The notes beneath the pieces are model-generated. The model saw only the letters and a list, made by a program, of their open reading frames with translations. It did no database searches and had not been told where the DNA came from. From positions 504,858-568,857 of the forward strand of contig NZ_JAFEUV020000003.1 in assembly GCF_017355915.2 (NCBI RefSeq): DNA of 64,000 nucleotides. Reading direction: 5' to 3'. The DNA comes from Telluribacter roseus (GTDB taxonomy: Bacteria; Bacteroidota; Bacteroidia; Cytophagales; Spirosomataceae). Below, in pieces: positions 2,317 to 15,344 of the stretch. Each line of letters opens with the position of its first letter. The first letter of the stretch is position 1. A program made the translations under genes and the position numbers.

Positions 2317-3564
2317 TTACCCTTTTATTGTACTCTGTAGTAGTTGTGATGCTTCTTTCTTTTTGTTATCCTCAAATGAACTTAAGTAATTTTCAGTAGT
2401 TTTTACATTGTCATGGCCTAAAGACTCTTTGATAAACTCTGTTGGATAACCTGCATTTTTTAATATTGTAGAAAAGGTATGTCTCGCAACAACTGTTGTG
2501 ACTTTTAGATATTCTATTCCTAAATCTTTACCAACTTCATTAAGCTTTTTATTGATTCTATTTGTAAATTCATTTATTCGAGCTTGTTTTGTTTTACTAG
2601 GCATGGACTCCTCAATGATGTTAAAAATTAAAGAATCCGCTGATGCAGGCTTTCTGCCCCAAATGTCTATAATCCTCTGAATTTCATCATTGATTGGTAC
2701 CTCTATTGTCTTTTCCTTCTTATTTGTATTTTTCGTCTTTTGTCTTACAAACCTAATATACCCTCCATGTATATTTTTGTACCTAAGTAAAGCTATATCC
2801 TTCATATTCATGCCGTTACAATTAAATGAGAATAGGAAGAAGTCAATAGCTCTGTGGGTGGTGCTCATCTCGACGTATCCGTAGCTACTTATCTTTCGTA
2901 TATCTTCGAGCTTAAGCGCTCTTTTCTTGTTTATAGATGTAGGGGGCTGAAACTTGTTTTTGCCAAAAGGGTATAGTTGACTATCAATCAAATCTTTGTC
3001 AATAAGTTCATTGAAGATAGCTCTGAGGTTTCTTGTATATATGCCTACTGTACTTGTCGAACGATGATTCATCCTCATCCATTCCTGGAATGATTTAAGA
3101 AAGTCGACCGTTACTTGTTGGAAGTGGAGTTTACCTCTGTTATCTGTGTACCCCTTTAACGCACTTAAGGTGAGTTGATAAGACTCTGCGGTCTTTAGTC
3201 TGTCCTCTTTCTCAAATTGCTCAATCTTAGCTTCAAGGGCTTTGAAGACATCCAATGGGTCTTTCTCTTTGCCAAAGCACCTTTCTTTGAACTCTTCCCT
3301 AGTATAGAAAGTCAAACTCTCCAGAATCTTACGGGCATTGATACATAAGGTATCAAGAATACGGCGCTTCGATTCGAAGAACAGGTCATTTCTAATGGTT
3401 TTACCGCTTTCGTAAGTTTTATATTCATTTACGCTAAAGCTAACTCCCGTTGAGAAAAGGTCCTGCTTACCCTTGAAGTAGATTTCAAGCTTTACTGGAT
3501 AGGTCTTATCCTTCTTTTGTCTCCTAGTATCAAGGTATACCTTTGCATTCGTTGTCCTTTGCAT
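2317..3564 (-). CDS. Tyrosine recombinase/integrase, Bacteroidota type
   Basis: This 415-residue integrase has an N-terminal arm-binding domain (about 1-100), a SAM-like core-binding domain (about 100-205) and a catalytic domain (about 215-400). The catalytic Tyr is in TTENYLSSF (Y393), with LGH at 382-384 and Arg361 in VVARHTFST. Two classical tetrad positions are changed: the first Arg aligns with Asn253 in CNGMNMKDI, and the His of H-x-x-R aligns with Val358. Similar NG-x-N and ARHS patterns occur in one common Bacteroidota integrase subfamily, so the change is probably ancestral rather than inactivating. The gene starts about 160 bases from the tRNA fragment at 3724-3769 and probably catalyses integration there. 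Confidence 0.9.
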   Translation of the reverse strand: MQRTTNAKVYLDTRRQKKDKTYPVKLEIYFKGKQDLFSTGVSFSVNEYKTYESGKTIRNDLFFESKRRILDTLCINARKILESLTFYTREEFKERCFGKEKDPLDVFKALEAKIEQFEKEDRLKTAESYQLTLSALKGYTDNRGKLHFQQVTVDFLKSFQEWMRMNHRSTSTVGIYTRNLRAIFNELIDKDLIDSQLYPFGKNKFQPPTSINKKRALKLEDIRKISSYGYVEMSTTHRAIDFFLFSFNCNGMNMKDIALLRYKNIHGGYIRFVRQKTKNTNKKEKTIEVPINDEIQRIIDIWGRKPASADSLIFNIIEESMPSKTKQARINEFTNRINKKLNEVGKDLGIEYLKVTTVVARHTFSTILKNAGYPTEFIKESLGHDNVKTTENYLSSFEDNKKKEASQLLQSTIKG

Positions 3565-7735: not shown

Positions 7736-7770
7736 GGTACCTAATTCATATATTGAGAATAACATACAAG

Positions 7771-7789
7771 GCGGTTTCGACCGCTTTTT
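7771..7789 (+). terminator. Rho-independent terminator with UUCG tetraloop
   Basis: Stem GCGGT/ACCGC around a TTCG loop, followed by five T. It lies 35 bases after the alcohol dehydrogenase stop codon. Confidence 0.75.
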
Positions 7790-7930: not shown

Positions 7931-8062
7931 CTAACTCAGGGTCTTGACGTAATAGTATTTCTTGATTAGATTCTCAAAGGGCTCGGCCGTCTGGATGACC
8001 TCTTTCTTGTCCAGCTTCGTTTTCTGTACGCTGTACTGGCGTGTCATTGTTATCGGATTCAT
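7931..8062 (-). CDS. 43-residue protein of unknown function, copy 1
   Basis: A 43-codon frame from ATG at 8062 encodes a basic protein with the blocks MNPIT, RQYSVQK, TAEPFE and KKYYYVKTLS. It aligns without gaps to the 43-residue frame at 8321-8452: 34 of 43 residues are identical, and 14 of those 34 use a different synonymous codon, which indicates selection on the protein. The first 11 bases upstream of the ATG (TTATAGC...) are shared too. I recognise no family. There is no signal peptide or membrane helix, so it is probably cytoplasmic. A 255-base frame on the other strand is a shadow. Confidence 0.75.
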   Translation of the reverse strand: MNPITMTRQYSVQKTKLDKKEVIQTAEPFENLIKKYYYVKTLS

Positions 8063-8262
8063 GGCTATAACAGTTTATAAGTTCAACCTCATTTACGATA
8101 ACATCACCACTCTAGTTGACAGGCTTCACAGATCTGTGTTCCTACTACATCCCATTGCAAATCAAATACCAGTACTTTACGAAATATCCTTCTGGCGGGC
8201 AGGGGTGAAAAGGTGACAGAATGAATGTCAACTTGACAATTTTGATGTGTACTTTTCAGATT

Positions 8263-8292
8263 AGAATAGGCACTCCTAGGAGTGCCTATTCT
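8263..8292. repeat. Perfect 30-base palindrome between the two 43-residue genes
   Basis: Arms 8263-8277 and 8278-8292 are exact reverse complements, beginning AGAATAGGCACTCCT. There is no T-run on either side, so it is either a terminator without a U-tract for the 8321-8452 gene or a protein-binding site. Confidence 0.7.
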
Positions 8293-8320
8293 GCTGGTTT
8301 AGGTTAAGAATAGTCTAGTA

Positions 8321-8452
8321 TCAGCTCAATGTCTTGACGTAGTAGTACTTCTTGGTAAGCGCTTCAAAAGGCTCGGCGGTATGAATCTTCTCCTTCTTGC
8401 CATACTTACTCTTTTGTACGCTGTATTGACGGATGATGGTTATCGGATTCAT
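8321..8452 (-). CDS. 43-residue protein of unknown function, copy 2
   Basis: Paralogue of the gene at 7931-8062, with the same length and the same start context. The conserved C-terminal ten residues KKYYYVKTLS and the TAEPFE block are identical; the differences cluster at residues 6-7 and 15-33. The strong Lys/Tyr-rich end suggests nucleic-acid or membrane-surface contact, but that is only a guess. The gene is transcribed towards copy 1, with a 30-base palindrome just past its stop. Confidence 0.75.
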   Translation of the reverse strand: MNPITIIRQYSVQKSKYGKKEKIHTAEPFEALTKKYYYVKTLS

Positions 8453-8627
8453 GGCTATAAGTAGTTTGTGGTATATCTGTTAGATAGTTTTGGCCGGTCC
8501 GGGTTTAATCAGCTTATGTACTTTTTTGAATACGTTAGCAGGGCTCCATGCGCGTAGGGCGTTCCGGTTGTTTAGTCGGGAAGAGAGCAGCACGCAATAA
8601 CCCGCTCTGGAAATAATTTTTGATAGT

Positions 8628-13501: not shown

Positions 13502-14626
13502 ATGCTCGAGACGCTCATCTTTTCAGAAAAACGGAAGTACGTCCTGACCCGGCACACCCTGTTCTGGCTATGCTGGCTCTTATTCTTCACGTACATCTAC
13601 GCCCAGAAGTTCGTTACTATCAATCCTGAGCTGGCCTACATCAGTTCTTTTTGGGAGGCTCTTATCTATATGCCCATCCATATTGGTATGGGGTACGCCC
13701 TTATCTACTGGATTATTCCGGTGTACCTGCTACGCTCCCGCTACCTGATGTCCGTTTTACTGATGGCGGTTAGCATCGTACTGGCTGCATTGGTTTCTCA
13801 CTTTTTTACCGTCTGGTTTGTAGAACCCCTTCGAGACAGCATGGGGCTCCCCAATCCCAGATCAAATATGTTTTATGGGCTTATGGCGGGATTGCGAGGT
13901 ACCAACACCACCACCGGATTTACGGGTACCATTAAGCTGCTGAAATTCTGGTACCAGAAGAAAGTCGAAAACGAAACTCTGAAGCGCGAGAAACTGGCGG
14001 CGGAGCTGAATATCCTGAAAGGGCAGCTGCACCCCCACTTCCTGTTCAATACCCTCAATAACCTGTACGGACACATCGTGAGTGGGTCGGAGCACAGCGG
14101 CGATATCGTCCTGAGGCTTTCGGGACTACTACGCTACATGCTGTACGAGTGCAGCGCCGAAAAGGTATCGCTGCAAAAGGAAGTACATATGCTGGAGACC
14201 TACGTAGAACTGGAGAAACTCCGCTACGGCGACCGGCTGGATATATCCATGCGGATGCAGGGCGTGAAGGACACCCACCAGATTGCCCCCCTGATCCTGC
14301 TGCCCTTCGTCGAGAATGCCTTCAAGCACGGTACCAGTCAGATGCTGGACCAGGCGTGGATCTCTATTTCGCTGGATGTCTCGGAGCACTTCCTTACCTT
14401 TAAGGTAATCAACCCGGTAAGTACTGAGAGTACTACCAAGATAGAGTCGGGGATAGGCTTGGCCAATGTGCGCAAGCGCCTGGAAATGCTGTATCCACAC
14501 CGGCACCAGCTCAAGGTAAGCGACCAGGAGGAGACCTTTGTGGCTTATCTGAAGCTCACCCTGGACGAAGTACCCGTAGTACCTACCCACCAACCCAAAT
14601 CTGATAGCAGTTATGAGCTTGCCTGA
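13502..14626 (+). CDS. LytS/YehU-type sensor histidine kinase
   Basis: This 374-residue protein has four N-terminal membrane helices (about 18-38, 48-70, 72-92 and 93-110), a short coiled coil and a His_kinase domain with QLHPHFLFNTLNNLYG (phospho-acceptor His in 177-179), followed by an ATPase domain with LILLPFVENAFKHG. It phosphorylates the LytTR regulator, whose ATG lies 14 bases inside this gene. A TATTTTTG box at 13475-13482 fits the Bacteroidota -7 consensus. The signal is unknown; there is no extracellular sensor domain. Confidence 0.93.
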   Translation: MLETLIFSEKRKYVLTRHTLFWLCWLLFFTYIYAQKFVTINPELAYISSFWEALIYMPIHIGMGYALIYWIIPVYLLRSRYLMSVLLMAVSIVLAALVSHFFTVWFVEPLRDSMGLPNPRSNMFYGLMAGLRGTNTTTGFTGTIKLLKFWYQKKVENETLKREKLAAELNILKGQLHPHFLFNTLNNLYGHIVSGSEHSGDIVLRLSGLLRYMLYECSAEKVSLQKEVHMLETYVELEKLRYGDRLDISMRMQGVKDTHQIAPLILLPFVENAFKHGTSQMLDQAWISISLDVSEHFLTFKVINPVSTESTTKIESGIGLANVRKRLEMLYPHRHQLKVSDQEETFVAYLKLTLDEVPVVPTHQPKSDSSYELA

Positions 14627-15344
14627 ACCCATCCGATGCCTGATCGTGGATGATGAACCCCCCGCCCTGGAGGTACTGAAGACCTACCTGCGGGCCGTGC
14701 CTTCGCTCCGGTTGGTGGGAGAGTGCTCCAATGCGCTGGATGCCTACCACCAGTTGCAGCAACAGAGTGTGGACCTCCTGTTTCTGGATATACAGATGCC
14801 CCAGCTCCGGGGTACTGATCTGATGCGTTCGCTCAAAAATCCGCCGAAGGTGATATTTACTACGGCCTTCAGTGAGTACGCCATCGAAGGCTTTGAGCTT
14901 AGCGCGGTAGACTACCTGCTGAAGCCTTTCTCGTTTGACCGGTTCCTGAAAGCCGTGGATAAGCTCCACGTATCCGGCGAGGTACCAGCAGCCCTGCACC
15001 AGCAGGCGGCCAAAGTACCTGATACCAGTAGTCGTTCCGAGTTCCTGTACTTCCGGGTAGATCGTAAGATGGTGAAGGTGTACCTGGATGATATCTGCTA
15101 CGTCGAAAGCCTCAAAGACTACGTACGCATCGTCACCACCGACGGCCAACTTGTGACCAAACAGCCCATCTCGGCCGTAGAAGAAATGCTGCCGGAGCGC
15201 CAGTTCCGGCGTATCCACCGCAGCTTCCTGGTGTCGCTGGATAAGGTAACCAGCTTTACCTCCACCCACGTAGAGCTGGGTAAAAAAGAACTACCCATAG
15301 GTAAGCTCTACAAGCACGAGGTCGAAAAGGCACTGATGAGGTAG
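14613..15344 (+). CDS. LytTR family response regulator
   Basis: This 243-residue protein has a receiver domain (about 1-125; phospho-acceptor D59 in LLFLDIQMP, Lys in LLKPFSF) and a LytTR DNA-binding domain (about 140-243; YFRVDRKMVKVYLDDICYVE, then FRRIHRSFLVSL). It is the partner of the overlapping kinase. A damaged second copy of its DNA-binding end lies at 15,991-16,057 and 16,819-16,893. Confidence 0.93.
   Translation: MSLPEPIRCLIVDDEPPALEVLKTYLRAVPSLRLVGECSNALDAYHQLQQQSVDLLFLDIQMPQLRGTDLMRSLKNPPKVIFTTAFSEYAIEGFELSAVDYLLKPFSFDRFLKAVDKLHVSGEVPAALHQQAAKVPDTSSRSEFLYFRVDRKMVKVYLDDICYVESLKDYVRIVTTDGQLVTKQPISAVEEMLPERQFRRIHRSFLVSLDKVTSFTSTHVELGKKELPIGKLYKHEVEKALMR

Follow-up and report, generated by a model that had tools for sequence, protein, structure and literature searches.

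Envelope-stress regulation by sigma factors has been described in several lineages. Promoters of the gamma-proteobacterial sigma-E system (RpoE/RseA) carry a -35 element with AAC, GGAACTT, and a -10 element of the TCTGA/TCAAA type, skp being among the targets, and to our knowledge that regulon holds no counterpart of the 43-residue protein considered here. The locus analysed below resembles this system in that its sigma factor matches solved sigma-H and sigma-E chains, and differs from it in phylum and in its -35 element, which is TTAAACC. Within Bacteroidota, excerpts of one report describe CirY/CirZ of Phocaeicola vulgatus, an ECF sigma/anti-sigma pair with a co-transcribed spy gene, where cirY, spy, and two genes further downstream went up once the anti-sigma gene had been deleted (PMC13114119); as far as these excerpts go, CirY/CirZ with spy is the nearest described relative of the sigma locus discussed here. 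The two are likened by gene order, with ECF sigma and anti-sigma genes followed by a Spy-type chaperone gene in P. vulgatus and by a putative one at the present locus, and not by sigma sequence, and the same excerpts mention neither a promoter motif nor a 43-residue protein (PMC13114119). According to part of another report, SM6, an ECF promoter class in Flavobacterium psychrophilum, is marked by a CGT box at -10, and the genes under its control include a sigma/anti-sigma pair and several type IX secretion genes (PMC9723704). SM6 and the promoter described here are both of the ECF type and from Bacteroidota, but the latter has TCTAAC at -10 and other targets. An excerpt on the ECF sigma factors of Bacteroides thetaiotaomicron mentions a -10 of the TGTT type (PMC12596196). 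A literature search with subscription papers largely outside its scope, and with the motif letters themselves not queried, had nothing among the papers listed on a TTAAACC-N17-TCTAAC motif or on the 43-residue proteins.

The window, meaning the whole stretch of 64,000 nucleotides of Telluribacter roseus that was analysed, contains the following features around the small genes:

7768 to 7787, plus strand: terminator-like hairpin, called by the terminator scan, with the oxidoreductase gene on one side and copy 1 on the other.
7931 to 8062, minus strand: 43-residue gene, copy 1 (MNPITMTRQYSVQKTKLDKKEVIQTAEPFENLIKKYYYVKTLS), 34/43 identical to copy 2, with synonymous sites saturated.
8263 to 8292, no strand assigned: perfect palindrome of 30 nt after copy 2, read from the sequence.
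8321 to 8452, minus strand: 43-residue gene, copy 2 (MNPITIIRQYSVQKSKYGKKEKIHTAEPFEALTKKYYYVKTLS), with a syntenic orthologue in T. humicola (88%) and a dN/dS of 0.10 against it.
8479 to 8508, minus strand: ECF-sigma-type promoter TTAAACC-N17-TCTAAC, with the -35 at 8502-8508 and the -10 at 8479-8484, 26 nt before the ATG.

The initial annotation had proposed that the two minus-strand reading frames are functional paralogues of a new small-protein family, and most of its particulars hold: the coordinates are correct, both frames run from ATG to stop and encode 43 residues, 34 of which are identical, and the start context is common to the two copies in the stretch TTATAGCCATGAATCCGATAAC around the start; the number of synonymous codon differences in the identical positions, given as 14, is 16 by the present count. 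Between the copies there are 35 nucleotide differences (stop codon included), distributed as 4, 8, and 23 over codon positions 1, 2, and 3, and when the same number of differences was placed on one gene at random, so few amino-acid changes without a stop arose in 0 of 20000 trials. Over ten gene pairs, the observed conservation was reached, per 20000 placements, 0 times in eight pairs, once in one, and 7 times in another, and spurious reading frames are ruled out by this test. The values of dN range from 0.05 to 0.33 over all ten pairs, with dS from 0.5 up to saturation; wherever dS is not saturated, dN/dS is 0.07-0.18, which indicates purifying selection and, together with homologues in three other genomes, supports the reading as functional paralogues. 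Those homologues, for which the initial annotation had suggested a search, are all in frame and of the same length as the window genes, and the family that they form is very narrow. The genome of T. roseus holds exactly two copies, both in the window. Across the family, 21 of the 43 alignment columns never vary, and most of these fall within two blocks, YSVQK and TAEPFE-L--KY--VK-LS. From its substitution pattern, the pair is best read as real genes of a narrowly distributed small-protein family. The novelty of this family is borne out by the absence of any Pfam, NCBIfam, or PADLOC match for any member (0 Pfam families at E <= 10 and 0 PADLOC matches); it is new, yet a small orphan protein in a stress regulon is an already known kind.

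Regarding its distribution, one copy is found in T. humicola, 88% identical to 8321-8452 and lying between a MarR gene and an oxidoreductase gene, the same place as in the window; one (65%) is on a contig of a Persicitalea metagenome-assembled genome (G014), and one (58%) is in a genome of the host's own family (G004), where the neighbour genes are different. A five-sequence profile found members in 4 of 222 family genomes, of which the own genome is one, and no convincing further member appeared among the matches listed for the order sample (390 genomes) and the phylum sample (395), the best extra match among those listed being weak (E 3.6e-4, 23 bits). From these two samples, 16 of the 27 weak-match loci supplied were read and all were rejected as family members: 12 carry one recurring frame matching only approximately positions 1-29, and the other four are partial matches, one of them within a frame of 437 residues. 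The recurring open frame, seen across Bacteroidota (L039, L042, L045, L046, L022, L025, and others), weakly resembles residues 1-29 at no more than 23 bits and is possibly antisense to a conserved gene.

Two genomes, G024 and G012, are closer relatives of T. roseus than G004 by the transketolase-like protein (94% each, vs 91%), and neither is among the genomes matching the small-protein profile; because of this absence, the family is patchy and the small protein would be dispensable for the stress response. On the Persicitalea contig, the small gene adjoins a histidine kinase/LytTR pair (L016, 39-1978); the corresponding pair in the window, with identities of 65% and 69%, is located at 13502-15344, 5-7 kb from the small genes, and this proximity in both contigs hints at a functional or ancestral link. 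Old linkage followed by losses would fit better than recent transfer. Synonymous sites are saturated between copy 1 and copy 2, and dS is 0.5 between copy 2 and T. humicola, so that the duplication should predate the split of the species; in T. humicola the small gene is separated from the oxidoreductase gene by approximately 140 nt, copy 1 is absent, and this species either lost copy 1 or never kept it. A search for the oxidoreductase neighbour in eight relatives at E <= 1e-60, run without a positive control, returned zero matches and is uninformative on the empty site.

The regulatory context of the family comes from its promoters. TTAAACC-N17-TCTAAC, identical in motif and with a spacer of 17 nt, stands upstream of four of the five small genes, its end 24-28 nt from the ATG; it was first spotted by eye in these promoters themselves and then tested genome-wide. 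Exact sites number 6, 6, 2, and 3 in the whole genomes of T. roseus, T. humicola, G004, and G014, against 0, 3, 2, and 1 for a reversed-pattern control; with up to one mismatch there are 11 sites in T. roseus and 14 in T. humicola, the control giving 5 and 11, and the T. humicola count by itself says little, since 14 hardly exceeds 11. The decisive point for the motif is the conservation of its sites between the two Telluribacter genomes: 10 of the 11 T. roseus sites (up to one mismatch) have a matching site before the orthologous T. humicola gene, with one site lacking a partner in T. roseus and four in T. humicola. Nine of the ten conserved sites precede genes with an apparent signal or lipoprotein sequence, and the tenth precedes the 43-residue gene, export being judged by eye and the two large proteins being assigned without a Pfam scan. 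The nine genes encode two short secreted proteins, a DUF4890 protein, two lipoproteins, a Gly-zipper lipoprotein, a large secreted protein, a large outer-membrane-type protein, and an HMA-domain protein; the DUF4890 and HMA proteins are above the Pfam cut-off and the Gly-zipper lipoprotein is below it. The site of the Gly-zipper lipoprotein gene lies 333-334 nt upstream of the start. Before this gene, 22-23 nt past the motif, there is a tiny reading frame (MKQEKRSWNEVFIETNASKD in T. roseus, L065; MKQGKRSWYEVFSKTDA in T. humicola, L068), which may be another small protein or a leader in the same regulon.

A matrix trained on 21 sites, no small-protein promoter among them, places its best position of the whole window at 8479-8508 (21.2, vs 12.0 for the next). 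In three relatives, apparent conserved coding sequence upstream of the sigma gene scores as high with this matrix (20.6-22.0), and a score of approximately 21 is therefore no proof when taken alone. In a profile search over 14 genomes with the small-protein promoters unseen, the T. humicola site was second overall (E 7.3e-5), the G004 small-gene site had E 0.013, and the window's site was last among the 12 listed for T. roseus (E 0.91); the Persicitalea small-gene site was not among the matches at E <= 1. Eighteen further loci matched by the profile were read, of which eight precede an apparent exported gene, one a sigma gene (in G040), and one a protein with a membrane span, the remaining eight being neither and including the best-scoring locus (L109, E 0.0018). 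The OmpH/Skp gene of G009 has a site with one mismatch, and loci in G004 and G012 precede, by eye, Spy-like and secreted homologues.

There are 37 Sigma70_r2 matches in the T. roseus genome, and the sigma gene that carries the site in G040 is orthologous (71%) to the T. roseus gene on locus L077. The order at L077 is an ECF sigma gene, an anti-sigma gene, and an LTXXQ-like gene, the third with LTXXQ and Metal_resist matches that are both below the Pfam cut-offs, and the anti-sigma and its membrane span being assigned by eye. Among solved structures, the nearest to this RpoE-like sigma are chains of sigma-H, sigma-E, and SigW, with PDB entries 6in7, 1or7, and 6jbq matching at E 1.5e-26 to 2.8e-23. 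A search for its orthologues in 59 genomes yielded 50 matches from 47 genomes, and the loci supplied for reading numbered 30. In 28 of these 30 loci, TTAAAC is found in the stretch from the sigma stop codon to the following gene, vs 594 of 6000 random windows equal in length. At this sigma/anti-sigma junction, TC.[AGT]A stands behind it with a spacing of 17 in 23 loci and of 18 in five (28/30); no other spacing from 10 to 25 occurs except 23 and 24, in one locus each. T. roseus, T. humicola, and G004 belong to the loci with a spacing of 18, and the T. roseus site, whose -10 is TCTTAC, fails the spacing-17 matrix (-3.2). In the two exceptions, L147 and L150, the spacing is 17 and one letter of the -35 is altered. 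Scored with the matrix, 20 of the 30 junctions exceed 8, vs 99 of 2703 control windows, suggesting that the anti-sigma might be produced by direct feedback from the sigma's own type of promoter. As to position, the junction motif (L137-L166) lies at the sigma stop codon, or no more than 70 nt past it, in 28 of the 30 loci.

Directly before the sigma gene, a strong site is present in G040 (21.6) and G054 (26.7) and a weaker one in G047 (11.0) and G012 (8.8); in the own genome, there is no motif site directly upstream of the sigma gene. A T. roseus match 478 nt upstream lies within the neighbouring transketolase-like frame and was not taken as autoregulation, and similar matches 272-724 nt upstream in nine other loci, among them the three at 20.6-22.0, were presumed to be coding likewise. 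When 28 loci of other sigma genes were scanned, three had a match of at least 9 (9.0, 9.4, and 13.0). From the pattern of sites, we conclude that the RpoE-like sigma probably recognises the motif and, by means of it, drives expression of its own anti-sigma.

In summary, the same type of promoter is found at the gene 8321-8452, at the exported-protein genes, and at the sigma locus, and for this reason the gene is very probably induced by the RpoE-like sigma in envelope stress; the wider reading, that a small-protein family exists of which at least one member (8321-8452) is a target of this sigma in envelope stress, is probable. The proposed chain would begin with envelope damage, upon which the membrane anti-sigma encoded beside the sigma gene would be inactivated; the freed sigma would then read TTAAACC-N17-TCTAAC promoters, a step well supported by sequence, so that exported chaperone-like proteins, lipoproteins, and outer-membrane-type proteins would be made from the sites described. 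The same response would also make one small protein without a visible export signal. This protein is basic and, by eye, shows no signal sequence or membrane span, and cytoplasmic action is thus presumed; as a soluble, basic cytoplasmic effector, it might dock on a partner, with the invariant YSVQK and TAEPFE-L--KY--VK-LS segments as the contact, and would most likely tune either gene expression or the inner face of the envelope while the response lasts. The docking step by itself is tentative, its likelihood being put near one in three, and the adjustment that might follow is of low certainty as well. Most newly found small proteins come with no functional clue, whereas the conserved promoter here ties anonymous small proteins to one identifiable sigma and its envelope-stress targets and gives them a regulon address; the motif could also serve to trace the envelope-stress regulon through Cytophagales genomes.

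These real genes could alternatively act mainly as RNA, each being a sigma-dependent small RNA with a short reading frame and a dual function. E. coli sigma-E makes regulatory RNAs that lower the synthesis of outer-membrane proteins, and copy 2 stands alone as a short unit flanked by a sigma-type promoter and a strong palindrome, and it is the sole member without a visible export signal, by eye, among the ten conserved sites; nevertheless, the dominance of third-position differences and the low dN/dS where dS is unsaturated indicate that the peptide is kept, and 0 Rfam matches were found in the window at the gathering score, which leaves a main role as RNA improbable.

A direct action of the protein on RNA polymerase or the ribosome, as for the epsilon subunit YkzG/RpoY, with feedback as part of the sigma response, is likewise improbable. 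The family profile has only two matches in the PDB (E 0.9 and 3.3), with no YkzG chain among its matches up to E 10, and in PHROGs only two families of one member each (E 0.05 and 0.23). One alignment-based model folds as beta-beta-alpha-beta with a mean pLDDT of 84, but the other four of the five models have a pLDDT of 49-61; the single-sequence model is poor (pLDDT 66), a C-terminal helix being its only notable element. Structure alignment of the uncertain beta-beta-alpha-beta model against 60 chains gave five with Z >= 2, values so low being common by chance, the best two being a 56-residue chain from an entry for an archaeal 70S ribosome (Z 3.1, 2.1 A, 38 residues) and YkzG 4njc (Z 2.8, 2.4 A, 35 residues), the latter of similar length to the small protein. 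These two chains, together with the basic character of the protein and its want of a visible export signal, speak for such an action, whereas Foldseek returned no match against the PDB at E <= 0.001 and there is no sequence match in Pfam or to any YkzG chain in the PDB. No fold is ruled out by being absent from the VIA list. The more specific proposal that the 43-residue protein has an epsilon-like fold, binds RNA polymerase or the ribosome, and retunes expression in the sigma-E-like response is a long shot; if true, it would define a new class of small stress regulator, encoded within the regulon that it modulates.

That the genes are patchy selfish or defence-type cargo in the chromosome (a toxin, a bacteriocin, or a mobile small ORF) is very unlikely: the presence in 4 of 222 family genomes and the different neighbours in G004 fit such cargo, but no homologues were found in the plasmids, viral contigs, and phages searched or with PADLOC, the gene is syntenic in two Telluribacter genomes, the Persicitalea histidine kinase/LytTR pair beside it speaks for old linkage, and no hydrophobic segment is visible by eye.

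Returning to the preferred reading, in which copy 2 is a target of the RpoE-like sigma, the two copies are not equivalent, as the conserved promoter is present only at 8321-8452. The spacer between them is 258 nt, and within the 258 nt upstream of copy 1 there is no motif, the best matrix score being -1.2. The palindrome at 8263-8292 has no T-run, and the terminator scan made no call there; T. humicola has a palindrome of 34 nt at the same place, both arms being altered alike, and the element might terminate transcripts from either strand. Expression of copy 1 could come from read-through or from a different promoter. The low dN of this copy indicates that it has been under selection, and in the proposed chain it would have arisen by duplication before the two Telluribacter species parted and then either have left the control of the promoter or rely on read-through from copy 2.

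Elsewhere in the window, a gene of the GrpE family (E 1e-15) lies at 988-1731, behind a short reading frame with a sub-threshold DnaJ match, and an integrase gene (2317-3564) is near it; the GrpE/DnaJ-like genes form a partial Hsp70 helper cluster on a possible mobile island.
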